From NCBI GenBank assembly GCA_021018995.1, contig CM037584.1, positions 175,602,317 through 175,666,316 on the forward strand: a stretch of 64,000 nt of DNA, written 5' to 3'. The stretch comes from Chloranthus sessilifolius (taxonomy: Eukaryota > Streptophyta > Magnoliopsida > Chloranthales > Chloranthaceae). Shown one piece after another: positions 1 through 64,000 of this stretch. Below the pieces are notes generated by a model. That model made no database searches and was not told where the DNA came from. It saw only the letters and a list, made by a program, of their open reading frames with translations. A program made the translations under genes and the position numbers. The stretch's first letter is position 1. Each line of letters starts with the position of its first letter.

Positions 1-3000
1 TGTAAGCTTTGTGGAAAAAAACTGCTGGGAGGAGGTATCACACGATTAAAGGAGCATCTGGCTCATGTAAAGGGAGAGACAAGAGGGTGTCCCAGTGTAC
101 CCAGAGAGGTAAAAGAAAATATCAGAGCTAGTTTACAAGCGACAAAGGGAAAGAAAAAAGCTGAAGCCGATCGTGATAGGGAAATGTATGAGAGAATCAG
201 GAGGCCAGATCCAGAGTTTACATCAGCTGCACCTGAGGATGATGAGGATGAGCAGATAGCGAGAGCTATGAGAGAGAGTGCCAGGGAAGCACAACAGCGG
301 CGAGATCAGGAAGAAGCCGATTATCGGTTTCGGTCCAGGTTGAGGGGCCCATCCATGCCTGCTACCGGTGGTGGATCTAGTCATAGGCCACATGTTGTTG
401 ATGTTGATGAGGATGTTGAGCAGACTGTCGGGTTGCGTAGGTCAGCATCTGGGAGGGATTATAGGCCGTCTACTAGAGGCCGTACTACAGCCCCCATGGA
501 TCCATTCATGTATCGCACTGAAAGCTCCAAACAAACCAAATTGAGTGCAATCTCACTTACAAAAATGGGGAAGATACTTGAAAAATCCATTGCCAAGTTT
601 TTTATATACAACCACATTCCGAGCCAAGTAGCAGACTATCATTGCATTTCAAAAGCATGATTGATACAAGTGCAGAAGTTGGTCCAGGAGTTAAAAAGCC
701 TTCTCCATATGAGATATCGGGGCCCTTACTAACAGATGAGTACGATGGATGGGATGAGAGAGCTTTGAGGATGTATGGGATAACTAATGAGATAACTGCC
801 TATGTACAGAGCTTTGAGGATGTATGGGATGAGAGAGGTTGCACAATTATGTGCGATGGATGGACTGGTCCCACAAAGAAGAGTTTGATAAACTTTTTGG
901 TTTACAGCGATGCCGGGACAATATTTTTGAAATCAGTTGATGCTTCTAGACACGTAAAGACTGCTGACTACCTCTTTAAACTAATGGATATGGTAGTTCA
1001 TGAGGTTGGAGAGCGTGGGTTGTCTTGGTGGTACGAACAATGCGCAAAACTACAAAGCCATTGGATTAAAACTAATGGCGAAGAGCGTCACTGTCTTGGA
1101 CCCGTGTGTGCCGCATTGCGTGGATCTCATTCTTAAGGATTTAGGAAAGAGAAGCAAGGCATAGACAACTATTCACAAGGGAAGAACGACATTCCTACCG
1201 TATAACAAGGACAAGTGGTCAATTTAATGAGAGCCTTCACGAACAATGAGTTGCTCACCTGCGATTACCGTATTGCAACACGGTTCTTAGCCCTCTGAAG
1301 TTTGGCTAGATATAGGCGTGAGTTTGAAAAGCATGGTGTCGTCGGAAGAATGGAATCAACATGAAAAGAGACTAGCTTGAAGTTCTTGACACGATCTGAC
1401 CTTTGTTTTGGGCGAGATGTCGACCACGATCGTCATACTACCCCGTTGGTGCAAGTGTTGAGATTGGTTGATGGTGATGACAAACCAACGATGGGGTACG
1501 TTTATGAGTCAATAGATAAGGCAAAATTGACTATAAAAACCAAATGCCCTACAAAATATAAATGATACTGGGCGATTATCGACAAGAGGTGGGATGCACA
1601 ATTTCACCAGTACTTGCATGCAGCAGGTATAACATGTTGCACAATTATATAGTGATTTTTATTTATTTATTCATTATTTTCATATACTGATGGAATTGCT
1701 TATATTTGATGTGTAGCACACTACTTAAATCCAGCCTTCCAGTATACGCGACGCTTCGAGCTGAGCGACACTGATGAAGTGTATACCGGTTTGCTCAATG
1801 TAATCCAAAGAATGCTCCCTGAGTTGACGGACCAAGGCCAAGCCATAAGAGATGTGAGTGATCATAGTATCATACCTTATAAGTAATAAGTTAAATGTCA
1901 TGTGATATTATCATCTATTTATTGATATGTGCCTTACTGTGTTTCATCTTTATAGATTGACATGTTTCGCAAGAGACATGGGTCATTTGGGACCCCGTTG
2001 GCGCAATCCCAAATTAAACACGACAAACCCGCTGATTGGTGGATGCATTATGGAGGTGATGGTCCGATATTGAGGCGGGTAGCAATGAGGGTATTGTCGC
2101 AAACGTGTTCCTCGTCCCAATCATGAAGGAATTGGAGCACTTTCTCATTCATACTAAGACAAGGAATAGACTAACTATGGACCGATTGGAAAAGTTAGTC
2201 TACTGCCACTACAACATGCGATTAAGGGTCAGGAATATACAGAGGACCAACCGTGGTAAGCAATTACATGAAGTCTTAGATCCTCAATTATATGAAGTCT
2301 TACTTACATATTATACTAATTCATCTATCATATTCTACCTTGCAGACGGTGATTATTTTGATCTCATCCAGTTGGATTATATATTCGAGGAGGATGACCC
2401 TTTGAATGAATGGATCGAAGAGAGAGAAGAGCCAGTCTTGGATAGTGAGAGCACTGAATGGCTGGACAATGCTGAAAGAGTAGCGGAGCAGCAGGCTTCC
2501 CAACCACCGAGGCGGAAAAGAAGATTGAATCGTCATTCAGTGGTTGGATCTGATGACGAAACGCAGCCTGATAGTGATGATGGGAGTGGTGAGGATGATG
2601 GTGGAGGGCATGATGGTGGAGGGGACGTTGGCACTAGTGGTGGAGGGGAGGAAGCTGGTACCTCTGATCCTTATAGAGATATGGCGGTATGGGACGATGA
2701 CTCGACGTCATTAACACAGTTCGACACTCCTACATTTAGAATGGGAGGGGTTGAAGGAAGAGGAGCGTCGGGATCATATCAAACACCACCACCACCACCA
2801 CCACCACAAGATGATACGGATATGGGTTATATGACTTCTAGCTTCAGGAGATTCAGTTTGCAAAATACCGAAGATTCAGCAACTAGTAACCCATACTACT
2901 AGCCACAACAAACCTATTCGGTGCCATATGACTTCGTTGGTCAGATTTTTGGAGGACCGGCCTTTACGTACTACACTGAGCCTCAGTTTCAAGGGGGCAC

Positions 3001-3118
3001 ATATAATCATGGGTATCAATATGGGCAACATTATAGGCCAAGGCCGGAAAGCTCGCGCACCAATGATGACGATGATCATGAGGGCCAAGAACCACCACGA
3101 AATTCAATGTGGCTCTAA
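1..3118 (+). pseudogene. hAT transposase pseudogene (BED finger, DUF659, dimerisation region)
   Basis: Frame 1 from base 1 reads CKLCGKKLLGG..RLKEHLAHVKG, a partial BED zinc finger (C-x2-C then H-x4-5-H type), then an acidic R/E-rich linker. The DUF659 part reads GCTIMCDGWTGP near 838-870. The RNase H-like core is broken by frameshifts near 640, 1010 and 1180. Three canonical introns remain: 1627-1716, 1854-1955 and 2256-2345. The C-terminal exons carry the hAT dimerisation motif (HAAAHYLNP) and a GCEMA-poor, acidic and Gly/Pro-rich tail. That tail includes a run of seven or more prolines and a KRRLNR basic patch. An in-frame TAG at 2900 interrupts the tail, which otherwise continues to 3118. 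It moved the element by cut-and-paste when intact and is now non-functional. The minus-strand relative at 25158-28235 lacks the 2900 stop. Confidence 0.85.
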
Positions 3119-3614
3119 AGTAAGTTTTTCATGTACAATTAAATTTATTTTTATCAACATAGCTATTATTTTTGACAATATATAATTTATTTTTGTCAAC
3201 ATACATTGTAATTATCATTGCGTGTCTGCGTCGATCAAATTATGAAATATTGTTAATAAAATAGGCATGTGATCAGCTGGTCGAACATAATGTTAGAAGA
3301 TCTATTACATTAAGTCAAAAATGTGATCTTAAGACAAAAATAAGTTACAAAATAGGCATGTGACTTGGGTTAAGTTACAAAATAGGCATCTTACTTATAT
3401 ATTCATCTAAATAATGCATCAAATAAGTCAAAAATAAAAGCAAAAATAGTTGAAATAAATACAAAATAAATAAATATAATTTTTCAGATTTTTTGGGATT
3501 TTTTGGGAATTTTTTTCAAAATACCGATTTTTTGAATGTATCGGACGATACCCGGTACGTATCGTCCTGAAGGTCAAGACGATACGTACCGGAAATCCGG
3601 TATTTTGACCCTTG
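1..3614 (+). mobile_element. hAT-1: hAT DNA transposon, 3' part (5' end outside window)
   Basis: The window opens inside the BED-type zinc finger of a hAT transposase, and the transposase pseudogene runs to 3118. The non-coding 3' tail contains stem-forming sequence around GACGATACSYGGTACGTATCGTC and ends near 3614 with TATTTTGACCCTTG. The reverse complement of that end (CAAGGGTCAAAATACCGG) resembles the termini of hAT-2 at 24862 and 30201. The same tail sequence occurs in hAT-2, which supports the 3' boundary. The target duplication cannot be tested because the 5' end is outside the window. Confidence 0.8.
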
Positions 3615-10598: not shown

Positions 10599-10995
10599 GT
10601 AGCATTATTTGTACCCATAAAACCTGTGAAAAACACACACATATAGTTGACTGCCTTGAATCAGACTATGGAGATCATTTTTCTTCCCAACTTTTCACAT
10701 AATAGATCTTGGTATCATGGTGCCCCTATCATACGGTCAGATCGTGATTCAATATGACACACTTTCCTAAAACTAATTGTGATTATGGGCGTATCTATCA
10801 GATCGTCACTTTTGGATCTGTGTCATGTGGAATAAACATGCGACCGTCTAATAGGTACGCCATGATATCAAGATCTATTGTGTGAAAAAATGGGATGAAA
10901 AACGATCTCCATTGTCTGATTCAAGGCAATCAATGATTTTTTCTTATGAAAGAAAGTGTGCTCTTCACAGAAAAAATTGGTACAAATAATGCCAC
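10599..10995. mobile_element. Fold-back MULE-type MITE
   Basis: Ends GTAGCATTATTTGTACC and (reverse complement of the right end) GTGGCATTATTTGTACC. The two arms are inverted copies of each other and share family words (ATAGATCTTG, GATCTATTGTGTG, ATCGTC). No target duplication is convincing. Confidence 0.65.
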
Positions 10996-11007
10996 AGTCA
11001 TCTTATA

Positions 11008-11392
11008 GGGTGGCACTATTTGTTGTCATTTTTCCTATGAAAAATACACGCATTTCCATAATAAAAAATCGTTGATTATCTTAAATCGGACGATGGAGAA
11101 CGTTTTTCGTCCCAATCCTCGATACAATAGATCTTGAGATCATGAGTATCTATCAGACAGACAGATCTTGATTCCACGTGGCATACATCTCCAAATGTGA
11201 CACTTGAGAACCCATTCTCATGGTACACCCATGATCACGGTCACTTTCCTTAATTTGTGCCTCATGAAATCAACATCCGACTGTTTAATAGGTGCACCAT
11301 ATTTTCAGGATCTATTGAGCAGAAGATTGACGAAAAATGACCTTCATTGTCTGACTTATATTCATTTGACTTGTGGAACCATTGTTAGTAAA
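11008..11392. mobile_element. Fold-back MULE-type MITE, second copy nearly abutting the first
   Basis: Starts GGGTGGCACTATTTG only 12 bp after the previous copy and has the same inverted-arm words (CAATAGATCTTGAGATCATG, CAGGATCTATTG). The right end is degraded. Confidence 0.6.
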
Positions 11393-15554: not shown

Positions 15555-15769
15555 TGACACAACCTAATGGAATATACCAACGCACCACTGGCTTTAATAA
15601 GGTACCCTACTACCAACTTATAGATAAAACCATCAAGTTGTAATTTATATCACCTCGAGCACATGGTTAAATGAGCCATTTTCTGTATATAAAAAAATGT
15701 ACACAAAAGTTGTGAAGCATTTGATATGAGTACTATAACATAAATCATTGTTAGCATCTATATTAAAAT

Positions 15770-16175
15770 GAGTACCTTTAAATCCACCCACAAAATCTTT
15801 GAGTTCGCCACGTTGAAACACATTGGTTGTATTGAATCAAATGATGGAGATTGTTTATCATCCTAATCTTTCACACGATGGATCTTGAGATCATGGGTGT
15901 ACCATCAGACGGTCGATTTTTTATTTCATGTGGTACACACGCAAAAAAATGACCTAAAATTCAATTTTGAGCATGCACATGATGTTAAGGTCACTTTTCT
16001 TAGATGTGTGTCATGTGAAATAAAACGCTGACCATCTGATGGTACGCCCATAATCTTAAGATCCATTGTGTGAGAGATTGGGAGGATAAACGATCGCTAT
16101 CGTTTGATTCAACACAGTCAATGTGTTTCAGTATGGGTGAACTCAAAGATTCGGTGGGTGGATTTATAGGTACTC
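15770..16175. mobile_element. Fold-back MULE-type MITE (406 bp) with perfect 9-bp TSD
   Basis: Terminal inverted repeats of about 37 bp start GAGTACCTWTAAATCCACCC. Behind them the arms continue as an inverted repeat of about 190 bp, meeting near 15970. TATTAAAAT lies directly outside both ends (15761-15769 and 16176-16184), a perfect 9-bp target duplication. Long inverted repeats plus a 9-bp duplication point to Mutator-like mobilisation. No ORF. Confidence 0.9.
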
Positions 16176-16392
16176 TATTAAAATACTTGGATTGGATGAA
16201 ACGAATTGGATTCGTGTGAGCATATTTACCCTAGTAGGCACGTACATTTGTTTATGACTTAATCGACACAAATAATTAAATGTGAAAATACATAATTACC
16301 CCTTAGTACACCTACTCAAAATTACGATTAAGGAGTATTTTAGTCTTTAAAAATTATCACAAAAGTCACATGTGTTCTCAAACTTTTATGCG

Positions 16393-30610: not shown

Positions 30611-31039
30611 GGGTGCTGTTTGTGGTCACTCATTCTCCGAAAGCACCTATGTCCTAGAGCCCTTGAAAACCATTGATTGCTTCTTTGTAGATGATGGAGG
30701 TCATGTTTCACCCCGATACTCCACAAAATAGATCTTGAGATCATGTCACACTTATCAAACGGTTAGTTTTTTATCCCGTGTGTCATAGATTCCCAAAAAA
30801 TGGTCCTTGAATCAAGTGGCACATATCATGCTCAAACATGAATTTAGGGCCATTTTCTGAGGATCTGTGACACACAGAATAAAAAATTGACCATTTGATA
30901 GGCACGTCATGATCTCGAGATCTATTGTGAGGAATATCGGGGTGAAACATGACCTCGATCATCTGATCAATCAATTTTATTCAAGTGATATGAGACGACG
31001 GCGCTTTCATAGAATCCGTGGGCACAGACAGAGGTACCC
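30611..31039. mobile_element. Fold-back MULE-type MITE
   Basis: The left end GGGTGCTGTTTGTGGTCAC aligns with the reverse complement of the right end (GGGTACCTCTGTCTGTGCCC). The arms carry AAATAGATCTTGAGATCATG and its inverse ATGATCTCGAGATCTATT. No 9-bp flank match was found. Confidence 0.65.
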
Positions 31040-32695: not shown

Positions 32696-32764
32696 TAAAT
32701 TGACTTCAATACCATTTCATTGATCACTTGTTTACCGAATTCTATCATGACCACTTAATATTAA

Positions 32765-33162
32765 GGGTAGCTCTATTTGCGCCCACGCAATCTCCTAAAT
32801 TGCCCACGTCCCTTCAAAATCATTGATTTCTTCGGATCAAATGATGGAGATCGTGTTTCACTCTGATCTTTCACAAAATGGATCTTGAAATCATGTCTCA
32901 CCTATCAAACGGTAAGTTTTTTATTACACATGTTATAGATCTCCAAAAACTGACCATAAAATTACGTTTGAATATGATGCGTGCCATAGAAGTTTAGGGC
33001 CATTTTTTGGGGACTTGTGACACGTGGAATAAAAAACCGACCGTCTGATAGGTGAGAAATGATCTCAAGATCCATTTTCTATAAGATCGGAGTAAGATAC
33101 AATCTCCATTATTTGATCCGAAGCAATCAATGTTTCTGAAGGTGGGTCCACACTTGGTACCC
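32765..33162. mobile_element. Fold-back MULE-type MITE inside duplication copy 1
   Basis: Starts GGGTAGCTCTATTTGCGCCC and ends CTTGGTACCC. Flanks TAATATTAA and AAACATTAA match at 7 of 9. The same copy, with the same flanks, is at 57338-57741. Confidence 0.7.
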
Positions 33163-33202
33163 AAACATTAATTGACCGAAAAATTATATGTACCGGAAGA
33201 TT

Positions 33203-33345
33203 GGTCATATTTTGATTTCTTCGGGTATACATCTTGAAAGTGATAGTGATTTGAGAACCACATTTGATATATGCCATGATTATATTCATTTTTGGGATGG
33301 GTGCCAGGTGGAATAAAAATTTGACCGTCTTATATGGTGGCCCAA
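33203..33345. repeat. Fold-back family core fragment
   Basis: Contains the central part of the family (GAGAACCACATTTGATATAT, GCCATGATTATATTCATTTT, AAAATTTGACCGTCTTAT) without ends. It is also present in the partner at about 57785-57925. Confidence 0.5.
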
Positions 33346-33954
33346 TCGATGGTCACCATGCTAAGTGGAGTTAAAATTCAGGGTCATCTGAGCCGGACCG
33401 GGGCCGTGTAATGGATCAGACAGACCTGATGAATGCACTAATAACAATAGACAAGTCTTCTAGAAAATGGGGTGAGAGTTGTAGCGGGAGTAGTCTCCTC
33501 CCTCACTTTGATTAGTACATGTATTTGGAGTTGGAACCTAACTATGATGAAGAAATTCATATTATAAATAAAGTAAGTTAAAAAAATTCCATAATATGGT
33601 TATCAATCGTCTGTTTTAACTTCAAACTCTTTTTTTTATTTTTTATCTTCTACTCTTTTGTTCCACAAAGTCACTGTTCTTGTTCAATTTTTAATTGATT
33701 TTAGTTGACATGCTTAGGTTGCTTAGTAGGTACGTACATGGGTAAAATTTTTTATGTCTCTTTAACCCAAAACCTGAACCCCACTTGAAAACCAAGTGAA
33801 TTAAACCAGTCTCAAAATTGATTCCGGTTGAATGGTAATCTAAATATATCTCAAAGTTGTATTGTAATTTTGTATAATTTTTTTAAAAATTTAACTTATA
33901 AAAGAAATAAAAAAAATTTATCAATTTCCTATTATATATTAAAATATATTTTAC

Positions 33955-34995
33955 AGGGCCACGTGTGACGGGATAAATACTCGAGCTTGCAGTATGGTGC
34001 GTGTGGCACGACATATGGTGCCAGGAGGGCACGCGATATGAGGCCAAGTGGGCCTGGCGACGTAGTCGCACTGCGAGGACGCGACACGGTCGCATGAGGG
34101 TAGGACGCGGAGCATCACAGTCGCGACACGGACGCGACATAGCCAAGGTGGGCTAACAATGCAAGAGGCGTTGCGGTATGTCAAACCAAAGGGTTTGAGG
34201 TTCTCCTGCCATTCTGGCTAAATAACTGTTTTACCCTTATATAGGGGAAGGGAGCTAGAGAGCTATTCTCCCGTACACGGGGCCTTGCGTTGTCAGAGGG
34301 GGCGCAAGTGTCTCCTAGGCCTGAAAGGGTGGGCCTAGGACGTCGACGCAGTGATGCCGTGTGAAACCCAAGGGAGGTTGAAGTATGGCTCCGAACTACG
34401 CGTCGCGGTGCATGCGGCTGGGCAACCTCGTGAGAACACTAGCACTGCGTGGGACTCAGTTGAGCACGACAGCACGTGGGCCAAGGATAAACGGTGCTAG
34501 TAAGTCGGAACGCATACGAAGGCAGGCTGTGTGGGACTCGGTTGAGCACGCGAGCCCGAGGCACAAGACTGTGGGCTTGGTTCGGTATGTGAGCGAGACA
34601 TGGTGGCATGTGGAGCTGCTTGCCAAGACTGTTGCGAGCAAGGTACTAGTGCAGTGCACATGGTGAAGCTTGAGCATGCCAAGTTTAGCACAGTGGTGGG
34701 GATTGGCGTGTCGTAAGGGGCACGATGAGTTGGATGGTAGGCCGTGAAACAGAGGTAACCATGTTGGGAGAGTTCTCGTCCTTTAGGCGGGTGGTATCAG
34801 AACTGATGTGTAGATAAGTTGGCTTCGTTGCATGCGGTAGCGAAGCACCGCGCGGGTTGTAAGTGTGTCGAAGGACGCCCCGCGACTGTTGGTATCAGAA
34901 GTAGGCTGACCTAGCGAAGCGTGCGTTAGGTGCCGCACGGGACTGAGGTTGCGGAAGTGCGACCCCGTGACACACGGCCCACAAGCTTAATTTCA
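33955..34995 (+). repeat. GC-rich LTR-retroelement-like block inserted in duplication copy 1
   Basis: Much richer in G+C than its surroundings, with ACGCGACACGG-type words. A TATA-like TTATATAGGGGAAGGG is at about 34238. Two primer-binding-site-like sequences occur: TGGTATCAGAAC near 34791 (11 of 12 to the initiator-Met-type site) and TTGGTATCAGAAG near 34890. Open frames here are by-products of base composition; no gag or pol sequence is seen. It may be an LTR plus leader relic. No boundaries or target duplication could be fixed. Confidence 0.4.
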
Positions 34996-35486
34996 CCTTT
35001 TAATTTATTTGATTTTTTGTTCGAAAAGGTAACCAAAAAGATGGATTGGGTAAAAGATATGGTGAATGCTAACTTTCCTCATCATTGCAAGATGCATGCA
35101 ACAAAATTTTGTAGTAAGATTTAAGGTTAGTATTTATTTTATTTAGTTTTTTGCATTTTTTTTGTTTAAAATAATAATTTGTTGTAATTTTTATTGGGTA
35201 GCTTTAAAAGCACCCGCCGAATCTTGTTGGGCTCCTACTCTAAAAACTATTGATTGCTTTAAATCAGACGATTTAGATCGCCTTACGCTCCAATCTTCCA
35301 CACAAGGGATCTTGAGATCATGATGCACTTATCTAAAGTGCTTTCTGATTTTTTTCAAATTTTCCCTCAATTTTTTCTTCTTTTTTTTGCCTCACCCATT
35401 TTTTCCCAAATTCCGACTTAGTAATTATGGTTGTATCACCGATATGTATCAGTCTCGATTGAGTTTTAATACAATAGTAAGGATAC
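34996..35486. repeat. Rest of the insertion: unassigned sequence and a fold-back arm
   Basis: A solo arm of the fold-back family lies at about 35212-35345 (AATCTTCCACACAAGGGATC, TTGAGATCATG). 34996-35200 is unassigned. Confidence 0.4.
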
Positions 35487-35638
35487 CATGGTTCAAAATT
35501 TCGGTCGAAATTTGAAAATTTCAGCGTTTCGGTTTCGGTCACCACCGAAAATGAATATTATCGGTCATTTTCGATCTATGGGAAGATTTTGGCCGAAAAA
35601 TTTCGGTTTCGGTACAAAAACCGAAATTTTGATCTTTG
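35487..35638. mobile_element. Small hAT-type MITE (152 bp) with perfect 8-bp TSD
   Basis: Ends CATGGTTCAAAATTTCGG and (reverse complement) CAAAGATCAAAATTTCGG. AAGGATAC lies immediately outside both ends (35479-35486 and 35639-35646), and one further C also matches. GAAATTT words fill the interior. The CATGG start resembles the hAT-2 terminus. Confidence 0.85.
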
Positions 35639-36025
35639 AAGGATACCATTCGAATTGAGTCTTTCCATCACTAAAGTCAATATTAATGATTTTGGCAGAT
35701 TTGGAGAAGCACCTTCCAGGAAGCCAATCGGATAAGTGATATCGAAACATTGGTAGACATCAGCAACATTCAAACCACTATGAACAACAGCCATGAGTCT
35801 GTATAACTTAAACGGAGGATACGCATAAGTGGGATCGAATCAAAGTGGTCTACACACAAAAATCCCACATGCCGAATTTGCAAATGGAGATTATCTGGAG
35901 ATTCCCAATTTTGCTCACTAAGTTGTAAAGTAAGACACTCATCTCATGCACAATTTGTAGGGTTTTTAATGGGCCCGGTCAGCCTAGGTTGACCTCAATC
36001 CATCGGGTTGGATCGGGTATGAGAC

Positions 36026-36231
36026 GAGGGCTGTCAACGGATCGACCTGATATCCGACACCATCCGACCCAGGTCAAGGTACATAAAATTGGCTTGTAGG
36101 GTTTTCAGGTCAGGTCGGCTTGAGTGGGCTATCGGCTCAGGTTGGTTCGGGTGTACCATCAGGTCAGACATATATATATTTCTTGTCAGGAAGCCAAAAT
36201 TTTGACCCGGCCCGACCCGTTGAAAGCCCTA
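36026..36231. mobile_element. hAT-like MITE with TAGGGCTGTCAACGG ends (206 bp)
   Basis: The left end is GAGGGCTGTCAACGGATCG and the right end is CCGTTGAAAGCCCTA. Flanks TATGAGAC and CATGAAAC match at 6 of 8. In duplication copy 2 the left end is TAGGGCTGTC preceded by TATGAAAC, 7 of 8 to the right flank here, which supports an 8-bp target duplication. Confidence 0.65.
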
Positions 36232-36384
36232 CATGAAACATCAGACTTGACCTGTTTTGGTTGGGCAAAGTGAGGGGATTTTGAATTGGGTTGAACCGAC
36301 TCGACCCAACTCGGGTCCAAGGGCTAAAAGGTCAGGCAAACCTATATTCAACACGATTCAACTTATTCCTATTTATTAGAACAT

Positions 36385-36778
36385 TTTTCCTGACGCACCT
36401 ATTTTTGCTAATGCTAGACCCCACAAACAAAGGAAAATTTATTGACTATTTTGAATCAGATGTTCCCAATTTTCTACACAGTAGATCTTAAGATTGTGGG
36501 CCTACCATCAGATGGTAAAATGTTTATTGTCTCCGACACACATTCTAAAATGTGAACGATCACAACATATCATAAAAAATGTCTCACGTTCACATTTTGG
36601 AGTGTGTGCTACATGGAATTAACATGTGGCTATATGATGGGAGGACCATGACCTCAACTTTTCTTACCAACAAGGTTGGGACCATAAATAATTTTCATCA
36701 CCTGATTCAAAGCCGCCAATGGTTTTTCTTCTGTTTAAGTGGCGTGGCAGCACAAAAATGAGTGTAGCAGTAACAATG
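36385..36778. mobile_element. Fold-back family copy (partner in copy 2 at about 59335-59690)
   Basis: Arms with CAGTAGATCTTAAGATTGTG and CATGACCTCAACTTTTCTTA meet at CACATTCTAAAATGTGAACG...CGTTCACATTTTGGAGTGTG. The copy-2 version has lost about 85 bp of the right arm. Confidence 0.6.
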
Positions 36779-36829
36779 CTCTTAATATAATATTTTAAAA
36801 TTGAGTACCAGTCATTCACACCCATGGAA

Positions 36830-37145
36830 CTGGGTTCTCCCTAATCTCCTCCGATGCATTGACCAACTATGAATCAGACGATGGAGACCATTTTTCATCT
36901 CAATCAATCACATAATGGATTTTTTTATCATTGGCGTGTCACCAGGCAGTCAATTTTCTATTACACGTGGCACACATCTCAGAATGTGACCCTAAAACTA
37001 TAGTTGAGCGTGATGTGTGTCAAGTAATTTTAGTACTACTTTTCTGGGGTGTGTGAGGACCGCCCATAATCTCCAAATCCATTTAGTGGAAGATTGAGAT
37101 AAAAAACGATCTCCAATTTGATTCAAAAGCGATCAATGCATTGCC
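36830..37145. mobile_element. Fold-back family copy (partner at about 59740-60040)
   Basis: Contains GACGATGGAGACCATTTTTC and the inverted GATAAAAAACGATCTCC, with a GCGTGTCACCAGGCAGTC core. Confidence 0.6.
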
Positions 37146-37679
37146 CGCTGGTGGAGATGGAGACAGATTACTATTTGACGGGATAAGATTAATGATACCT
37201 CTAAAATTTTTAGAAAGTTTTAAAAGATAATATGATTATCTATTACTTATGATATTTAAATTAAATTGGTTGCAGTTGAAATGGGTGAAGGTGGATAACA
37301 AGTATTCTCTTTTTCCCAAGAGAGAAGAGCCATTCAAGGGCGTGGACTCAAATTCTACCGAAATCTCCAAACCAAAACACAGAAGGAAAGGGATACCAAA
37401 CAGAGCACCTTTTTATTAAGCTGTAAATCTCTATGATTAGTCTAATTAAAGCGATATTTCTAGTAATATATATTGTGTTTTGCATGGTTTCTAACAAATT
37501 AGAATCCCTTTGAGTACGTATGAAAAAAAAAAAAAAAAAAGTATGATTAATTTCAATAAAGTCAACTTTAGACCACAGGTGATTGTTATAGATATTTATT
37601 GCTTGGTTAGATGCGTCTACTTAAATTTCAATTTGATTTTCGTGCCAATAAGATTATGAAAGGCTCACGTCTAAAGTCC

Positions 37680-38299: not shown

Positions 38300-39170
38300 C
38301 GTAAAGTAGGGAGGCCAATTTTATCAAGTCTAACCATTCCTCTTGTATCCTACAGTAATCTGTCACCTTTTCCATATACTTTATTAATACCAGCCTCACC
38401 ATCACGAGCTAGTGAATCAACAACTTGGTTGCCTTCTCGAAAAATATGAGAAACTGTAAATCTCATTCCTCTAAGGCCTTCAAGTAATTGTTCCCAATAG
38501 TCCGACAAATACCACACATTACATGCGCTTTTGGTCAACCAATTCATAGTATAGCTGAATCAAACTCAATTTCCACTTGATAATAACCATGCTCCTTACA
38601 TGCCTCAATGCCCCTCGCCAATGCTCTTTGTTCGACAATATTATTGGTGCCAAACCCAAGAGAGTCCGAAAAGGCAGCTTTAGCATTCCCTAATTGATCT
38701 CTAATCACACCACCAATACCACAAGTCCTCAGGTTTCCCCTACAGCTCCCATCAACATTTAATTTCATCCATCCTGGACTCGGTTTGGACCATATTATCA
38801 TACGAATCAAACGACTAACAACTTGCTTAATGGGCACATTGATAGTTGACATAATATATAGTTTGATCACTTGATGCCAGACTTCTACATTTCACTATAT
38901 TCTCATATATATGGTAAAGCCAAAACTTCACTGCAAGCCAGATGGCCTCAACCATTTCATACTTCGACTCCATTCTCGCTTTGCATCTGCGTAACCACAA
39001 CCACCAAGTGATGATACTTGGAATTAATCCTACAAGTGTACCTTGCTGTGAAGCCCGTTTCTGGCTGAAACTCGAGATCGCCAAGTCGAGAAAGTCATGT
39101 AACGAACACCTAGTGCACATGCAGCATATTCCCAGTTTGCCTTAGCAATTTCCCCCGTACATAATAATTT
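38300..39170 (-). pseudogene. LINE (L1-type) 3' fragment with RNase H domain
   Basis: On the minus strand 39120-38827 encodes a linker with TWWLWLRRCKARME-type sequence as seen before the RNase H of plant LINE reverse transcriptases. After a frameshift, 38870-38544 encodes KLNVDGSCRGN, NNIVEQRALARGIEA and VEIEFDSA. A second frameshift near 38546 leads to MNWLTKSACNVW and EGNQVVDSLAR. The four acidic residues of an RNase H site (D, E, D, D) are present across the two frames. There is no upstream reverse transcriptase or poly-A tail, so this is a dead fragment. Confidence 0.8.
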
Positions 39171-49405: not shown

Positions 49406-50003
49406 GTTCTACCTAAAATCATCTCATTTGTGAATGGATGCGAACAACGGTATCTGATGACCAACCAACATAGTTTTTATGAGTAGCCAAACATGCCGGG
49501 TTCCCAAATTCACAAATGAAATGATTTAAGCATTTGATCCGCCACCCCAATTAATGAATGTGATTGTTGAAGTAATTCCCTGATTTGTGACTTTCTATGC
49601 TTTGATAGCAAAACAAACAAAAAATGGTTAAAAATATTGACCCAACAATTAATCAGTGCTTTCTAATGATAATTAAGTCTGCAATGGAGACTTTGTTTCA
49701 AGACGTTCTACCTAAAATCATCTCATTTGTGAATGGATGCGAACAACGGTATCTGATGACCAACCAGCATAGTTTTTATGAGTAGCCAAACATGCCGGGT
49801 TCCCAAATTCACAAATGAAATGATTTAAGCATTTGATCCGCCACCCCAATTAATGAATGTGATTGTTGAAGTAATTCCCTGATTTGTGACTTTCTATGCT
49901 TCGATAGCAAAACAAACAAAAAATGGTTAAAAATACTGACCCAACAATTAATCAGTGCTTTCTAATGATAATTAAGTCTGCAATGGAGACTTTGTTTCAA
50001 GAC
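49406..50003. repeat. Recent tandem duplication, 2 x 299 bp
   Basis: Copies 49406-49704 and 49705-50003 differ at only about three positions (CCAACCAACA/CCAACCAGCA, GCTTTGATAG/GCTTCGATAG, AATATTGACC/AATACTGACC). No gene is recognised inside. Confidence 0.9.
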
Positions 50004-50473
50004 GTTCGTATAATTCTCAGATAAAATAAATGGAGAAATGAATATAAAAAATGGAAAATAAAACAAAATTTTCAGTCATTGATATAACTCTTGAAAAAGA
50101 TAACCAATTGACCTTTTCTTTTTTCTATTACTTTTTTGGTTTCCTATCTGGATATCTAACTAATTCATTAATCAACCAATTCAAAGTAGTATCCACAAAG
50201 TCATCTCATTTGGAAACAAGGCCATTAACTAAACAGGCACATTGGCCAATTCTCATATTAGTCAATTTAAGTATTGCTTAATTTTCAATTCACATATCAA
50301 GAGAAGACGAAGACTGTTGAAGACCAAGAGGGAAGCAAGACAAAAAGGTCTGCAAAGTTACGGGGAGCTTAGCGCTGATTGGAAACAAGCGGACAAAGAG
50401 GAGTTCAAAAAGCAGACCCCAAATAGATGGGATAAGGTTGTGATGATAATGGGTTGTCCACATAAGGCTAGGT

Positions 50474-54422: not shown

Positions 54423-54876
54423 GGGCACCTCTATCTCTGCTCACGCATTCTTTGAAAGCGATTACGTCTCAGACTCCTTGAAAACCAATGATTGCTTCAG
54501 ATTTGACGATAGAGATCGTTTTTCACCCCAATCTTCCACACAATAGATCTTGAGATTATGTCTCATTTATCAGATGGTCTGTTTTTTATTCCATGTGTTA
54601 CAGATACCAAAAATATGACTCTAATTCACGTTTGAGTGTGATGTGTGTCATATGATACCAAAAAATTGCCATATGATTCAAGGATTTTTTGAGAATTTGT
54701 GATACATGGAATGAAAACAGACCGTCTGATAGGTGAAACATGATCTCAAGATCTATTATGTGGAAGATCCGGTTGAAAAATGGTCTTCATCATCTGATCT
54801 GAAGTAATCAATGACTTTCAAGGGATCTGAGGCGTGGGCGCTTTTGGAGAATGTATGGGCGCAAACAAAGGTATCA
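54423..54876. mobile_element. Fold-back MULE-type MITE (454 bp) with perfect 9-bp TSD
   Basis: Ends GGGCACCTCTATCTCTGCTC and (reverse complement) TGATACCTTTGTTTGCGCCC. Long inverted arms carry CAATAGATCTTGAGATTATG and CATGATCTCAAGATCTATTA. ATGAGAGAT lies directly outside both ends (54414-54422 and 54877-54885). Confidence 0.9.
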
Positions 54877-54885
54877 ATGAGAGAT

Positions 54886-57271
54886 TTAGGGAGCAAAAAT
54901 AGGTGTTTAGTTAAGTAATTATGAGCTTTGTTATTTGCAACTGTAAATTTACTCTTTATAAATAATTGTAGATAATAATTCCCTTACTATTTTAAGACAC
55001 TACAATTCATCTTTCTTCTTATATGTTTTTTTGATTTTTGTACCTTTCATAAACTCAATGCGGGCAGACTCCCACACTGGTTCCTTGGTTCCGCCACTGA
55101 CTATCATGGCGGCTTGATGGGTAAGGGGCATATGCCCGACCTGACTTGATCCGACTGAATGATGCACCATAACTCGACTCGATGGGCCAAACATATGTGC
55201 CGGAACCGAGCCAATGCGCGACCCGAAAATTCAACTCGATCCAATAAAAAGTCGTTATTTTCTTTTATTATTCATATATATTTTTAACTTTTTATAATTA
55301 TTAATATTTTTTAATTTTCCAACTTTTTTCTTGGAATTACCGAAATCTACCATTTTTTCGTATATTTCTGGAGCCCTTATACTCCCATAGGTATACTTGG
55401 TCATTGTGGTCAAACCTAATCTGACATGAAGGTCAGGTCTGATGCTTCATGCTCGACCTAACTTGACATGTGAAGTTTTGATAAAAAAATTGGAGTCAGC
55501 AAGCTCCTGTTATAAGATCTGGAGCCTCTCCACTCTTAAGAGCGAGGAGACCCATGGTTTCATGTGGGTCATATGGCTCAGCTGACTAACTTGGAATCCG
55601 TGAGTTAGCATGCTGCACCAACTAGCCCAGCCAAGAGAGCTAAGCCACTCATTCCTCCCCTTGAAGCCCCCGCTTCGGTTATAAGCTCGTGTCACTGAGC
55701 TCAGTTGATTTCTTCACTCCACGTTATGATATTAGAGTAGACCTTTCTCCACTCCACGTCACCCAATTCGTTTCTCTATGTGGTAGTTGGCTCCGTTTCA
55801 GCAACATGTGCAAGGGCATCTTTAGCTTAGTTCCACATGGCCAATGATATCTTTGTCTCGACACTCATAAGATCAGGCATGAAACATTTGACCCAACCTT
55901 CTGAATAGGAGATTTTGTACTAAGGTGGGTAAGATCGATTTTTAGAGTCGATCTGGGTAGGTTTGTCATATGCCCTTGAATTATTAGACAACCAAAATTC
56001 TGGCACCACTCAACCCATAGATAACTTTGGCTATGGTACCAACTACCAAGTTTCCCAAGAGGGAACAATAAGTGATATCTTGGCAAGAGGTTTGAAGTTA
56101 TATAATCTCTTTTTTATATTCTTAATTTATTTTTTATCTTTTGACAAGTTGCCCAAGTTTGTTCAATCCCATTATAAATAAAAATAAAAGTAAAAAATAT
56201 TAACTCTTATATTTTTCACTTGTTATTTTTTTTTTTTTTTGAAAGGCACTTTTTAAGTAGTATAATGTAGACAAATTCTAATGAATGGAGATTATATAAT
56301 ACTAACTTTTATAAGAGTACCTACATTTACAATCAAAGATTCTTCCCTCTCAACTCACATTTCACAGCTTAAACTGTTTGAATTTTTCAAATCAAATGAT
56401 AGAAATTATGAGTAATTAAGGTCAGGTCGGATTGACTAAGATGTTGGTTCTGGTTGGGCAAAAATCAGATCAGGTTGCACAAAATCTGGAAAATATGGGT
56501 ATTTAACCCGTTCGGAGGCATTTTTCAGTTCCAAATTGGGCAGCCAAAATTTTGGCCGTATCCATAATTATCTACTAGTAATCTATGAAATCGTCACTTT
56601 TATATATTTTTTTGGACTCCCTAAATTTTTTTCTGAAAATTTTACAATATTTTTTAATTTTTTTTCAGAAATGAACGAAAAATAAAATTTATAATTATGC
56701 TATCAGTGGTAACATAATTATAAACTTATGACACAATAGTTCTTGAGCTTACGACCCATCTATAAGAGGCTCATACAATGATTGCACGTGGAATACATTC
56801 CCAAAAGTGACCCGAGAACCTTCTTATGTGAAATCAATAGTTCCCAGAGATTTGCGTCGTATCGAATCAACATCTCAACGTTTGATTGGTAGGAAATAAT
56901 CTCAAGTTCTACTGTGTGAAATATTGGAACAAAAAACAATCTCCGTTGTCAAATTCTAATCGCAATCACAATGTTACGGCTGATTATACTAGTATCTTTA
57001 TGATATAGTGACATACATGTGGAATAGTATAAAAAAACAATGAAGTGAGCCTAAGGGCTGGCTCTACACCAATTCGGCACGGAAAATTTGACCTGAGCTG
57101 ACCCAACTTGACCCGATGGTGCACTCAAGCCGATGCAACCCTACCCAGAAACTTCACCTGATGCTTGACCTGAAAATTCGACTCGACCTAGTAAAAAACT
57201 CTTATTTTTTTTTACTTTTTACCTAGCAAATATCGGGTCTGATCGGGCGAACCTGACCTCCTGGCATATAC
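54886..57271. repeat. Mixed repeats: GGGTCGGGT-type and a fold-back copy
   Basis: GGGTCGG-type patches at about 55110-55260, 55400-55470, 56405-56575 and 57055-57260 have CGACCTGACC-like words. A fold-back copy at about 56720-56985 has CAATAGTTCTTGAGCTTACG and ATAATCTCAAGTTCTACTGT. The rest is AT-rich and unassigned. Confidence 0.5.
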
Positions 57272-57337
57272 TTCACTACCATTTCTTTGATCACTTGTTT
57301 ACCGAATTCTATTATGACCACAAACCCTTAATATTAA

Positions 57338-57741
57338 GGGCACCTCTATTTGCACTCACGCAATCTCGTAAAGCGCCTATATCAGAAACTCCTTCAAAAT
57401 CATTGATTGCTTGAGATCAAGTGATGGATATCGTGTTTCACTCCGATCTTCCACAAAATGGATCTTGAAATCATGTCTCTCCGGTTAGACGATCAATTTT
57501 TTATTACACATATCATAAATCCCAAAACAATGGCCCTAAAGTTACGTTTGAGCGTGATGCGTGCCATAGGATTTTAGGGCCATTTTTTGGAGACCTGTGA
57601 CATGTGGAATAAAAAATTGACTGTCTAATAGGTGTGAAATAATCTCAAGATCCATTGTCTGTAAGATTAGTGTAAAACACAATCTCTATTATTTGATCCG
57701 AAGCAATCAATGTTTCTAAAGGGGTTCCACACGTGGTACCC
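57338..57741. mobile_element. Fold-back MULE-type MITE inside duplication copy 2
   Basis: Starts GGGCACCTCTATTTGCACTC and ends CACGTGGTACCC. Flanks TAATATTAA/AAACATTAA are the same as in copy 1, so insertion preceded duplication. Confidence 0.7.
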
Positions 57742-59164
57742 AAACATTAATTGACCAAAAAATTGACCAAAATAAGATTGGTCATATTTTGATTTCTTGT
57801 GGCACATGTCTCGAAAGTGAGAAAGTGATATGAGAGCCACATTTGATGTATGCCATGATTATATTTATTTTTGGGATGGGTGCCACGTGAAATAAAAATT
57901 TGACCGTCTTATGGTGGGCCTATCGATGGTCACCATGCTTGGTGAAGTTAAAATTCAGAGTCATCTGAGTAAGGCCGTGTAATGGGTCACACAGACCTAT
58001 TGACAGCACTAAGTACTAACAATAGATAGGTCTTCTAGAAAATGGCATGAGAGTTGTAGAGGGGGTGGGAGTCTCTAGCCACACTTTGATTAGTACATGT
58101 ATTTGGAGTTCGGACTTAAACTATGATTAAGAAATTGGGCACTTTAGAGTTATGTCCGGACATAACTCTAATTATACCTAAGAAATTCATATCATAAACA
58201 AAGTAAGTTAAAAAAATTCCATCATATGGTTATCAATCGTCTGTTTTATCTTCTATTACAGGACTTGTTCTATCTTTTTCTTATATTCCATCATCTCACA
58301 GTCACAGGTAAAATGAAAAGTTTCTTTTTTTAATTGATTTAGTAAATTGACAAAAATTTATATATTTTTTTTACCCAAAACCTGAACCCCACCTGAAAAC
58401 CAAGCGAATTAAACCAGTCACAAAATTGATTCTGGCTGAAATGATTAGGTCTTGGTTTGGTTGGGTTTCAGTTTTGGGTGATAAAAAACTGAAAATTGAA
58501 AAATCTGATAAAACATAAAAATGTTAAAACATGATTATTATGTGCCCAATTAGGACTAGAAGCATGCTTTTGGATGGGCTAAGATATATGAATGAATCCT
58601 AATCTAAATACATCTCAGAGTTGTATTGTAATTTTGCATAATTTTTTTGAAAATTTAACTTATAAAAGAAATAAAAAAAAGATTACCAATATTCTATTGT
58701 ATATTAATAATGGACACTTTAGAAAACGATGTCAGAAAAATAAACTTTTTATCAAAAATGACCCGACTTCAAACATTTTAAAAAAATGGTGATTTAGAGA
58801 GGAAACGCAGAAGCGGTATCGAATCAAAGGGGTCTACACATAAAAATCCTACATGCCGAATTTGCAATTGGAGATTATATGGAGATTCCCAATTTTGCTC
58901 ACTAAGTTGTACAGTAACACACTCATCTCATGCACAATTTCTAGGGTTTTTAATGAGTCTGGTCGGCCTAGGTTGACCTCAATACTTGATCCGTCGGGCT
59001 GGATCGGGTATGAAACTAGGGCTGTCAACGGATCGACCTGATATCCGACACCATCCGACCCAATATTTTCCTAGGTCAAGGTACATAAAATTGCCTTGTA
59101 GGGTTTTCAGGTCTGGTCGACTTGAGTGGGCTATCGGGTCAGGTTAGTTCGGGTGTACCATCGG

Positions 59165-59211
59165 GTCAAACATATACATATTTCTTGTCAGGAAATATGT
59201 ATATGTCTGAC
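59165..59211. repeat. Hairpin created in duplication copy 2
   Basis: The 20-bp arms 59165-59184 and 59192-59211 are reverse complements with one mismatch, separated by TTGTCAG. Copy 1 has only the left arm (around 36163-36184), then continues differently. Confidence 0.8.
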
Positions 59212-60491
59212 AAAACGGTCAAGCCTGAGTAAGGGGATTTTGAATTGGGTCAAACGGACTTGACCTGACTAGGGTCGAAGGGCTAAAAGGTCACGCAAAC
59301 CTATATTTCAACATGATTCGACTTGTTTCTATTTATTAGAACATTTGTACTGATGCACCTATTTTGTTAATGCTAGATCACATAAACAAAGGAAAATTTA
59401 TTGACTACTTTGAACTAGATGTAGAAAATTGTTCTCAATTTTCCACACAATAGATCTTAAGATTGTGGGGCTACCATCAGATGGTCAAATGTTGATCGTC
59501 TCTGACACACATTTTAAAATATGGATGATCACAACATATCATAAAAAATGTCTCATGTTCACCTTTTGGGATGTGAGCTACATGAAACTAATATGTGGCT
59601 GTCTGATGGGAGGACCATGACCTCAACTTTTCTTACGAACAAGATTTTGACCGGCAGTACAAAAATGGGTGTGACAGTAACATTGCTCTTATTATAATAT
59701 TTTAAAATTGAGTACCACCAATTCACACCCATGGAACTGGGTTCTCACCTCATCCCCTCCGATGCATTGACCAATTATGAATCAAACGATGGAGATCATA
59801 TCAATCACATAATTGATTCTTTATCATTGGCGTGTCACCAGGCAGTCCGTTTTCTATTTCACGCGGCACACATCTAGAACGTGACCCTAAAGCTACAGTT
59901 GAGCGTGATGTGTGTCAAGTAATTTTAGGACTACTTTTTGTGGTGTGTGAGGAAATCTCATGATCTCTATATCCATTTAATAGAAGATTGAGATGAAAAA
60001 ATGATCTCCAACGTTTGATTCAATGCATTGCCGACTGGAAAAGATAAGGTGAGATCACTATTTGACGGGATAAGAATAATGATACCTCTAAAATTTTTAG
60101 AAAGTTCTAAAAGATAATATGAGTATCTATTAATTATGATATTTAAATTAAATTGGTTGCAGTTGAGATGGGTGAAGGTGGATAACAATTTCTCTCTTTT
60201 CCCAAAATAGAAGAGCCACTCAAGGGCGTGGACTCATATTCTACCGAAAACTCCCAACCAAAACACAGAAGGAAAGGGATACCAGAAAGAGCACCTTTTT
60301 ATTAAGTTGTAAATCTCTATGATTAGTCTAATTAATGAGATATTTCTATTAATATATATTGTATTTTGCATGGTTTCTAACAAATTAGAATACCTTTGAG
60401 TTTTTCTCAAAAAAATAAAACAAAATCCCTTTGAGTACGTATAAAAAAAAACCAACCCCTTTGAGCATGATTAATTTTAATGCCGTCAACT

Positions 60492-60845
60492 CACTATGCC
60501 AAAATAGACGAAAACAGACAATCTAAAGCCGTCTTTTGTAAAAAATCAGACGGCTCAAAACCATCCTCACGGTCGTTCTTTTCGTTGGCGTCTTAAAAAT
60601 AGGAGAAGGTCCTAAACTGTTTTATATTTCATAAATAAAACGAAAGGAAATGACTGTTTTCCACAATCTTAATATAAGACGGTTTGAAGCCGTCTCATAA
60701 TAACCAACCGTCATTTATCAAATGCTCTGTTAGAGACAGTCATGAGCTGTCTTATTTATCATATTAGACAGTCCTTTATGAACCATCCTATTTAAAAGAT
60801 AATCGAAATAAGACGGCCTTAGGCAATACTTTTTTAAAAATCGTA
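60492..60845. mobile_element. CACTA-type transposon terminus (fragment)
   Basis: Starts CACTATGCCAAAATAGACG. It is followed by subterminal repeats of AGACGGTTTGAAGCCGTCT type on both strands (near 60528, 60680, 60735, 60815). CACTA ends plus short inverted subterminal repeats are typical of En/Spm elements. No opposite end is seen, so it is a truncated or very degraded copy. Confidence 0.7.
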
Positions 60846-60964
60846 ATAAAAAAAATATTAATAATTCTGGATAGGGCTTGTTCCCCAAAATACCCTGGTT
60901 AGACATAAAAATAAGCGGGAATATTGAACCACTAATATAAAAAAGTAATATATATATATATATA

Positions 60965-61340
60965 GGGAGCCGATTAGGTCCTCCAATGGAGGACGGTGAC
61001 CGTCCTCCAAGATCCACATGGAGCTCCATGTGGCACTCAAAACACTTTTTTAGTGTCACGTACAGCACAAGTGGACAGTTTAGATCAATATTAAAAAAAA
61101 AAAAAAGAATTTTTTTTTTAATCTACAAGTCAAAGTTTGATGATTTTCATTGATCCATAATTCACGGTTCAAAATAAACACGGTGGAGATGAGTTTTTAA
61201 TTTTTTTTTTCAAAGATAATCTAAGCAATGCACCCAAGCTCCATGCGGCACCCAAAAAATGTTTTGAGTGCCACGTGGAGTTCCACGTGGAAGGTTGGAG
61301 GACGGTCACCGTCCTCCCATGAAGGACGGAGGCCTTTTCC
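60965..61340. mobile_element. Fold-back MITE (376 bp) with nested palindromes in each arm
   Basis: The arms of about 80-100 bp share GGAGGACGGTGACCGTCCTC, itself a palindrome with a 3-base centre. They continue with CACTCAAAACA. Both ends lie in TA runs (60950-60964 and 61341-61367), so the target duplication is TA or longer and cannot be read. No ORF. Confidence 0.75.
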
Positions 61341-61367
61341 ATATATATATATATGTATATATATATT

Positions 61368-61716
61368 ACGTCTGAATTAAGGCATTGAACCAATCATCAT
61401 TTCATTTAATCAGCCTTTAAGTGACCACCTGTCTCATGAGAAAGAAAAGTTCCATCCATGATTAAGACCCATTTGATTCAAACATCAAATTAGTAAATAT
61501 ATTCTATCCAATTTAGATAGAGAAGGTACAACAACCAAAACATTGAAAAATAGATTTCATAATACACAAGATGATGAAATCACATCACAACCATTTAAAA
61601 AAACAAAGATCAAAGGAAAAAAAAACTCACTAAAATCCTCTAACCAAACAATGACACTAAAGCCAACAACCAAAGATTAAAAAAATAAAATAAATAAAGG
61701 GGTCGTGGTCATTTGC
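61368..61716. other. AT-rich spacer before the gene-fragment cluster
   Basis: No element end is recognised here; a CTRR/hairpin Helitron terminus was looked for on the minus strand without success. Confidence 0.4.
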
Positions 61717-61836
61717 TCAGTTGTTTTGGCTGCAGTAGAAGGATCCCAAAGTTTTAATGGCTGCTGCTCTAAGTATGTATTGAAGGTAAGTAGCTGCTGC
61801 CAAAGCACCAACAAAAGGACCAACCCAGAAAATCCA
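61717..61836 (-). pseudogene. Last exon of a PIP2-type aquaporin (orphan fragment)
   Basis: A canonical acceptor (TTTATTGTGCAG|TGG) opens a 120-bp exon that ends in TGA at 61717. It encodes 39 residues: [20 protein letters not shown], then the [13 protein letters not shown] tail. This is transmembrane helix 6 and the C-terminus of plant plasma-membrane intrinsic proteins, water channels. The tail fits the PIP2 group. The intron before WIFWVGP is at the position usual in PIP genes. No upstream PIP exon follows at higher coordinates: a katanin fragment is found instead. The exon is therefore an isolated capture. The C-terminal GSFRS phosphorylation context of PIP2 is altered to GSFYC. Intact frame; no evidence of expression. 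Confidence 0.8.
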
Positions 61837-62190
61837 CTGCACAATAAACCAAGCCATTAACTCAATAATTCAATATAATAAAAACAAAACACTCTTCAAG
61901 GCTAATTAAAGTATAAGAGTCTTATAATATCTAAAAATTCTTATTTGTTTAACATATTGGTTCTCCTCAACAGTAGTCAAACAGAAAAGGAGTTTCTTTT
62001 TTTACATTTTACATTTCACTTTTTCAAGAAATAGACTAATTTTATCACAACTTGGAACCATGTGTTGGGAACAACCGAGTGAATGCACAACTACAGACTT
62101 GCTCCTGGCCTCATACTCAGCATCACCAGCTTTGGTATGATAGCCAAATTTTCCTCTTTAAAAATAAAAATAGACAGAAAAATAAATTAC

Positions 62191-62469
62191 CTCTCAATCT
62201 TGTTATCTAGTAAGCATGTAAGAAGAGGCAGCAAACGAGAGAAGAGATCAAGGGTCATAATGTCGATTTTCTCCAGAAGTACACTGATTACATTAGCCTG
62301 CACCTGTTTTTTCAATGGATGATCTATTAATATTCACATATAAGGGGACAAAACAAAATGCTAATACCAATTAGTGACTGACATCAATAGCTTGAATAGG
62401 ATACCTACAGAATGGTCAAGAAATTGTCCCACTGCATTGATACCACCCATAATGTCATCGCGTACCCAA
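62191..62469 (-). pseudogene. Katanin p80 (KTN80) con80-domain fragment, two exons
   Basis: The first piece (about 62469-62409) reads RDDIMGGINAVGQFLDHS and ends at a GTAGGT donor. The intron runs to an ACAG acceptor at 62304. The second exon (62303-62191) reads VQANVISVLLEKIDIMTLD, then LLPLLTCLLDNKIER, and ends at a GTAATT donor in phase 2. The spliced sequence is collinear with the C-terminal con80 region of plant katanin p80, the regulatory subunit of the microtubule-severing enzyme. No WD40 part and no later exons are present. The 5' edge joins directly to the SirB1-like fragment near 62469, in a different reading frame. Family assignment is from recalled motif similarity. Confidence 0.7.
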
Positions 62470-62598
62470 CTTGAGATCCCACAATGGTAATACCAAGTCT
62501 TTGACAAGCTTCCATATAAATGGTGCTAATCATAATTGATGTCAATAGGATGGTCATAAGTGGATAACTAAATAAATTAAAATACTCAAAAGAGAGGG

Positions 62599-62654
<56 letters not shown>

Positions 62655-63427
62655 GAAGCTCCCAAGTCCTGACTGATATTGTTATCAATAAGCAAGCTGT
62701 CATACATACATACACACAAAGGATGAAGTTTTACCACTGCCACATCTAGAGCTTAGGACTGTATGCAAGTACGAAAATTTTCAATCTACAAGTAGAGGAA
62801 ACCTCTTCAAGCCTCTTGATTTGAAAAGAACTACATTCATTGTCTCCATATAAATGGGAATACCAAGTCTTTGATAAGCTTCCATATAAATGGTGCTAAT
62901 CATAATTGCTGTCAATAGGATGGTCCTCAGTGGATAACTAAATAAATTAAAATACTCAAAAGAGAGGGAAATATATATATGAAGCTCCTAAGTCCTGACT
63001 AATATTGTTATCAATAAGCAAGCTGCCATACATACATACACACAAGGGATGAAGTTTTACCACTGCCACATCTAGAGCTTAGGAATGTATGCGAGTACGA
63101 AAATTTTGAATCTACAAGTAGAGGAAACCTCTTCAAGCCTCTTGATTCGAAAAGAACTACATTCACTGCCTCCAAAACTTCCACCAAATGGAAACATATA
63201 TCTCTTGAAGCCAGCACTGCTTCCACTTCTTTTGTAATTGAATCCAACTCATTTAACCACTCGGATATGCTCTTTCCAGCCAAAAGAATAATTTCTAAAC
63301 AATTCCATTTAGGATTATTCTCGAAGGATGATGGGCCATCTCTCCTTTCAGTTAGAAATGAATGAGCATCCATATCTCTATTGAAAGTCGTAAAAGCTTC
63401 ATCTTCAGCTGCAACAAATAACCAAGC
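62470..63427 (-). pseudogene. SirB1/transglutaminase-like (Transglut_core2) protein, partial gene with duplicated exons
   Basis: Exon X (63427-63061, after a GTGTTGCAG acceptor) encodes AWLFVAAEDEAFTTFNRDMD, NPKWNCLEIILLAGKS, EVEAVLASRDICFHLVEVLE and SSRCGS, ending in phase 1 at a GTAAAA donor. A fused exon follows (62908-62735, 174 bp = 58 codons). It starts AIMISTIYMEAYQRLGI and runs in frame into a second copy of the end of exon X. A third block near 62538-62470 reads AIMISTIYMEACQRLG, then TIVGSQVG. Its acceptor is AT and not AG. This order matches plant SirB1 N-terminal/Transglut_core2 proteins. The N-terminal exons may lie beyond the window. The gene is broken downstream, where katanin sequence begins. 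The biochemical role of the plant family is not established to my knowledge. Confidence 0.65.
62484..63173. repeat. Tandem duplication (about 326-370 bp units) inside the SirB1-like fragment
   Basis: Unit A 62484-62847 and unit B 62854-63173 are about 95% identical. They differ mainly by a (TA)n run at 62600-62653 in unit A against about 6 units in B. Shared blocks include GAAGCTCCYAAGTCCTGACT and TACCACTGCCACATCTAGAG. Confidence 0.9.
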
Positions 63428-63430
63428 CTG

Positions 63431-64000
63431 CAACACATGAAAAAAGAAAATAAATGATTATTATGCCACACCATTCTTAAAAAGTTGGTGCATACAGATT
63501 CAAACGAACTACAATTTTTGTTAAATTTTTTCTGTGTATGTGAGGGTAACCTGAAACCTGGGTAAGAAGGTACTAGTTAGCATTCCAAACTGGTAAACAG
63601 AGATCATATTGTTTAGTGCCATTCATTTTTACTTAAAGTACTTCAGATAAAGGCCTTCAAATCAAACGGCTTAGATGGTGTTTTCACATGGCGTAGGTCC
63701 TCAAAATACCAAGTCTTTCTTTTAAAGCATGTGAAGGGCTAAGTATAGAGTATAGTTTTAGTTTAATACAATACAAAAAGGTATAAAAAATGTTGCCATG
63801 TGTCTCAAATCAAAGACCTGTTCAAAATCTGGTAGGAAAAATATAAAAAAAAAGTTACTTCTTGGCACGTAAAACTTTCTAAAATGTTTCAAAAAGCCAC
63901 TAATTAAATATGATGGTACCAAAAGAAGTAATATCTCATCAAATCAACCCTAAAGAGGGACTCATCCAGAGAACTATAAACTAACAAATGAAAAACAGAA
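63431..64000. other. Probable intron or flank of the SirB1-like fragment
   Basis: AT-rich sequence upstream (minus strand) of the GTGTTGCAG acceptor; no further exon was recognised before the window end. Confidence 0.4.

Follow-up and report, generated by a model that had tools for sequence, protein, structure and literature searches.

Pieces of three unrelated host genes next to a CACTA-type transposon end in Chloranthus sessilifolius

Results

Three gene pieces in sense order

The window analysed here is a stretch of 64,000 nucleotides from Chloranthus sessilifolius. A first-pass annotation had described pieces of a SirB1-like, a katanin p80 and a PIP2 aquaporin gene lying within 1.7 kb on the minus strand, in this order and with their introns kept. 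We tested the pieces one by one from the minus-strand sequence 64000-60500, and matches in Pfam and PDB agree with that description. The features are as follows:

63061-63427, minus: SirB1-like exon 1, with a Transglut_core2 match once joined to exon 2; followed by GT
62483-63174, minus: tandem duplication in the SirB1 piece (62853-63174 and 62483-62848)
62465-62538, minus: SirB1-like exon 2 piece, second copy; the acceptor reads AT
62409-62468, minus: first katanin exon, its 5' part cut off at the SirB1 joint; followed by GT
62191-62303, minus: second katanin p80 exon (con80, PF13925); AG and GT at its edges
61717-61836, minus: terminal coding exon of an aquaporin of the PIP2 type, including the stop codon; preceded by AG

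Joining SirB1 exon 1 (63427-63061) to the exon-2 piece gave a match to the Pfam family Transglut_core2 (PF13369) at E=3.9e-9 (36.6 bits, cut-off 23.5), while the exon 1 part 63427-63137 searched alone against Pfam had no transglutaminase match. Similarly, the two katanin exons joined (62468-62409 and 62303-62191) gave a match to Katanin_con80 (PF13925), residues 1-58, at E=1e-10 (42.4 bits, cut-off 27). Searched alone, the second katanin exon remained under the Pfam cut-off for this family (E=4.2e-5) and matched none of the PDB chains at E up to 1. For the PIP2 exon (query 61839-61717), the best PDB chain found by phmmer was 1z98 (E=2e-13), and the Pfam MIP match was under the cut-off (E=7.8e-4). 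The exon edges presumably fit those of the intact SirB1, katanin p80 and PIP2 genes of plants, similarity having been computed with Pfam and PDB alone. Between katanin and PIP2, an open frame of 51 residues (62002-62157, minus) may belong to another captured piece; it had no Pfam match up to E=5 and was rejected as a fourth one.

GT follows SirB1 exon 1 and both katanin exons, and AG precedes the second katanin exon and the PIP2 exon. The splice sites had been described as intact, which is true of these edges but not of the second copy of SirB1 exon 2, where the acceptor AG seen in the first copy has become AT and is lost. The retained introns had also been taken to exclude retrocopies; they do speak against such an origin, and the pieces were thus captured as DNA and not via mRNA. 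The common orientation carries little information by itself, since randomly oriented pieces would all fall on one strand with a chance of 1 in 4.

The tandem duplication within the SirB1 piece and the lost acceptor were overlooked in the first-pass annotation. Over two ungapped blocks (204 and 128 nt), the copies share 95% identity; in a wider alignment, 309 positions are identical, 21 are mismatched and 47 are gaps, the gap being mostly an AT tract (62601-62653) expanded in one copy. Another tandem repeat is found at 49406-50007, where two copies of a 299-bp unit are 99% identical, so that this duplication is recent.

Joints between the pieces and reading frames

SirB1 and katanin meet within exon sequence, at about 62468-62465, and the frames on the two sides of this joint disagree. 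Homology to SirB1 extends to about 62465 and that to katanin begins at 62468, leaving a TGGG compatible with both; this overlap suggests that the two pieces may have been joined via short homology. The katanin/PIP2 joint falls in non-coding sequence, within 62190-61838. An assembly error that brought unrelated stretches together appears extremely unlikely: the window is free of N, one joint interrupts an exon while the other is non-coding, and the pieces are decayed, with a lost acceptor and diverged tandem copies.

Five splice forms were tested, and none (0/5) offers a stop-free passage from the SirB1 frame to the native frame of katanin or PIP2. If the second katanin exon is skipped, katanin and PIP2 come to be in frame, but stops occur within the SirB1 portion of that frame. 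A full SirB1-katanin-PIP2 fusion protein was rejected on the basis of these five forms. The sense order of the three pieces, the last of which supplies a native terminal exon and a stop codon, also raises the idea of a real chimeric gene, in which a promoter beyond 64000 would drive spliced SirB1-katanin-PIP2 RNAs acting on the donor genes via small RNAs or as truncated proteins; we regard this as improbable.

A CACTA-type terminus and its subterminal repeats

The carrier of the pieces had been left as unknown. We found a likely CACTA-type carrier end at 60492, 1.2 kb left of the gene pieces, with the following features around it:

57270-60491: left flank; 32703-37567 is a diverged copy of it and lacks CACTA at the corresponding position
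60492-60510, plus: CACTA-type left terminal sequence CACTATGCCAAAATAGACG, single match in the window
60511-60830, both orientations: subterminal repeat region with 8 motifs (AGACGGY/RCCGTCT/AGACAGY/RCTGTCT)
60965-61340: nested palindromic MITE in a TA tract, ends read by eye

Allowing up to 3 mismatches, 60492 is the sole place in the window that matches CACTATGCCAAAATAGACG. CACTA words number 115 on both strands of the window; the one at 60492 has 8 subterminal-type motifs within 350 nt, the next best (minus 61055) has 4 and the other words listed have 1. The word at minus 61055 was discounted, as it is situated inside the MITE and looks back over this same cluster. The 8 motifs occupy about 320 bp after 60492, compared to a mean of 0.084 and a maximum of 2 in 5000 first-order Markov sequences with the same make-up, a figure that is optimistic because the motif set was picked after the region had been seen. 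The uniqueness of the cluster across the window is firmer: no 320-bp window elsewhere in the stretch attains 8 motifs. With one mismatch allowed, AAGCCGTCT occurs 10 times in the whole window against a shuffle mean of 6.09, which is not unusual since 13 of 100 shuffles reach this count; half of these matches (5/10) fall in 60526-60819.

We also looked for CACTATGCCAAAATAGACG outside the window. A search of literature text, partly judged by title, returned no plant CACTA paper, and viral contigs gave 0 matches. The 2 matches in a prokaryote genome collection are close to the 1.9 expected by our own arithmetic and are thus uninformative. The accessible text of PMC8978399 gives the CACTA signature as a terminal CACTA with subterminal units of 10-20 bp in direct and inverted orientation. 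Here the terminal CACTA was found at the left end alone (60492-60510), and at this end membership of the CACTA superfamily is supported.

The left flank and a probable insertion point

BLAST aligned 57270-60425 with 32703-37539 in four blocks of 77-90% identity, the 32703-37567 copy being longer by about 1.9 kb (33943-35814). This copy was used as the empty site for comparison. The 28 nt preceding the CACTA match 37540-37567 at 23 of 28 positions, and the next best place on either strand reaches 19. This comparison was made without gaps; a global alignment followed a different route through an A-rich run, which is why we relied on the ungapped one. From 37568 onward the sequence reads TTAGACCACAGG and differs from the element side, and a plus-strand BLAST of the sequence after 37540 against everything up to 64000 gave no colinear match. 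The similarity hence stops at the base where the CACTA element would begin, and this break at 60492 looks like an insertion point. The bases directly to its left are CAACT; in the parts of the sources at hand, the target-site duplication of CACTA elements is given as 3 bp (PMC8978399) or, in rice and maize, as 5 nt (PMC8903248).

Extent of the proposed element and candidate right ends

The repeat cluster is located right of the terminal word, so that the element reaches in the direction of the gene pieces. The MITE and some unassigned sequence come between this cluster and the PIP2 exon. The MITE has inverted arms at 60978-61103 and 61201-61327 and a self-inverted BLAST match over 60948-61358. 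Elsewhere, six foldback elements align with their own reverse complements (10661-11354, 15759-16185, 30616-31031, 32811-33142, 54446-54853 and 57387-57726); several of them match one another at about 66-77%, and the six are likely one MITE family.

No right CACTA end was found in the window, up to 64000. There are three TAGTG words in 60600-64000; over the 19 positions of the left end, the one at 61055 agrees at 7 and those at 62376 and 63618 at 9 each, compared to up to 11/19 for TAGTG words elsewhere in the window. A short CACTA derivative ending within the window was rejected on the basis of these 7-9/19 matches. ACT comes directly after the word at 62376 and likewise directly before 60492; this word sits in the katanin intron, between two katanin exons, and we took it as a coincidence and not as a right end.

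The longest stop-to-stop frame in 60000-64000 (148 residues) is SirB1 exon 1, and a transposase gene could lie past 64000. Grapevine CACTA elements are 10 to 25 kb long according to the available part of PMC2528002, and at such lengths a right end far beyond 64000 would be nothing unusual. Scans of the window with Rfam and for tRNAs both gave 0 hits.

Other protein-coding traces were seen far from the gene pieces. Two inverted copies (1-3156 and 28215-25108) are 75.6% identical over 3.2 kb, and the 1-3156 copy has a weak zf-BED match under the cut-off (E=0.0059). The zf-BED domain is typical of hAT transposases. On the minus strand, an open frame at 8687-9379 matches the beginning of a GTPase domain of the dynamin type (Dynamin_N, E=4.2e-21), and an RNase H-like retroelement piece is present at 38547-38891 (RVT_3, E=1.6e-11).

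Helitron and Pack-MULE termini near the gene pieces

A Helitron or a Pack-MULE had been suggested as carrier. Multi-gene, intron-bearing cargo is known for both, as stated in the part of PMC1947982 consulted, and such a carrier could have its ends between 61345 and beyond 64000, in which case the CACTA end at 60492 would belong to a separate or truncated element nearby. The missing right CACTA end in the window and the MITE between the repeat cluster and the gene pieces would agree with this arrangement. The termini themselves argue against it. A search for CTRR-T with a hairpin, run over the entire window in both orientations, yielded six matches, none of them in 61345-64000, a region thus devoid of a Helitron-like 3' end; the nearest (minus 60974) belongs to the palindromic MITE. 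Among inverted pairs in 59500-64000, the 25 longest of 108 consist of the MITE and AT tracts alone, with no MULE-like repeat. Neither carrier was found in the surroundings of the gene pieces, where ends were looked for up to 64000, and we consider a separate carrier of this kind, with an end past 64000, unlikely overall. Multi-gene capture of DNA by a transposon, as first suggested, is upheld; the Helitron or Pack-MULE is left unsupported, neither type of terminus being found near the pieces.

Discussion

We propose that the locus probably represents the left portion of an element of the CACTA (En/Spm) type with pieces of at least three host genes as cargo, that is a Pack-CACTA, which would run from 60492 to beyond 64000. 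We infer that the gene pieces are situated inside this element and that it is non-autonomous. An old rearrangement by non-homologous end joining beside a CACTA fragment, with no transposon as carrier, would also account for the TGGG overlap and the internal tandem duplication, as both fit repair events. It seems very unlikely to us, given that three unrelated pieces share 1.7 kb and that a CACTA repeat cluster 0.9 kb away is directed at them.

The proposed Pack-CACTA most likely belongs to an already described kind of transposon that captures genes, and not to a new type. As far as the consulted part of PMC1947982 describes it, Tgm-Express1 is a soybean CACTA element of 5.7 kb with both ends known, which carries exon and intron sequence from five unrelated genes; these pieces are spliced as extra exons of the gene in which the element resides, and chimeric transcripts were cloned. 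The CACTA superfamily, exon and intron pieces of several genes and the keeping of GT/AG (mostly, at our locus) are common to the two in that account. In contrast to Tgm-Express1, with its two ends and its transcripts, the element described here holds other gene pieces, is seen at one end and is known from DNA alone. Pack-CACTA and more generally Pack-TYPE elements are presented, in the portions available of PMC8903248 and PMC13317346, as DNA transposon ends with captured host DNA, for which cargo gain via fusion of neighbouring insertions has been proposed. The locus resembles them, as portrayed there, in combining a transposon end with host gene pieces, the left end alone being seen here. With the CACTA elements of Chenopodium and grapevine (PMC8978399; PMC2528002, in the text accessible) it shares a CACTA end, direct and inverted subterminal units and gene fragments; unlike in these accounts, the terminal sequence after CACTA differs and no transposase is seen in 60000-64000. 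Helitrons and Pack-MULEs resemble it as multi-gene, intron-bearing chimeras, but their termini were not found around the pieces.

In published models, a transposase would act on both ends and move all the sequence between them, and cargo would be gained by fusion of neighbouring insertions through aberrant excision. A joining of SirB1 to katanin by short homology would fit the TGGG overlap. The cargo reads toward the left end and, if it is transcribed, the retained splice sites could yield chimeric RNAs.

If the proposed Pack-CACTA is correct, its right end past 64000 should read ...TAGTG, followed by ACT (or CAACT) and then by sequence like that starting at 37568. The locus constitutes a further case of gene-fragment capture, one that points to a CACTA element, and its sense-ordered exons, with splice sites predicted to be mostly working, are raw material for exon shuffling.
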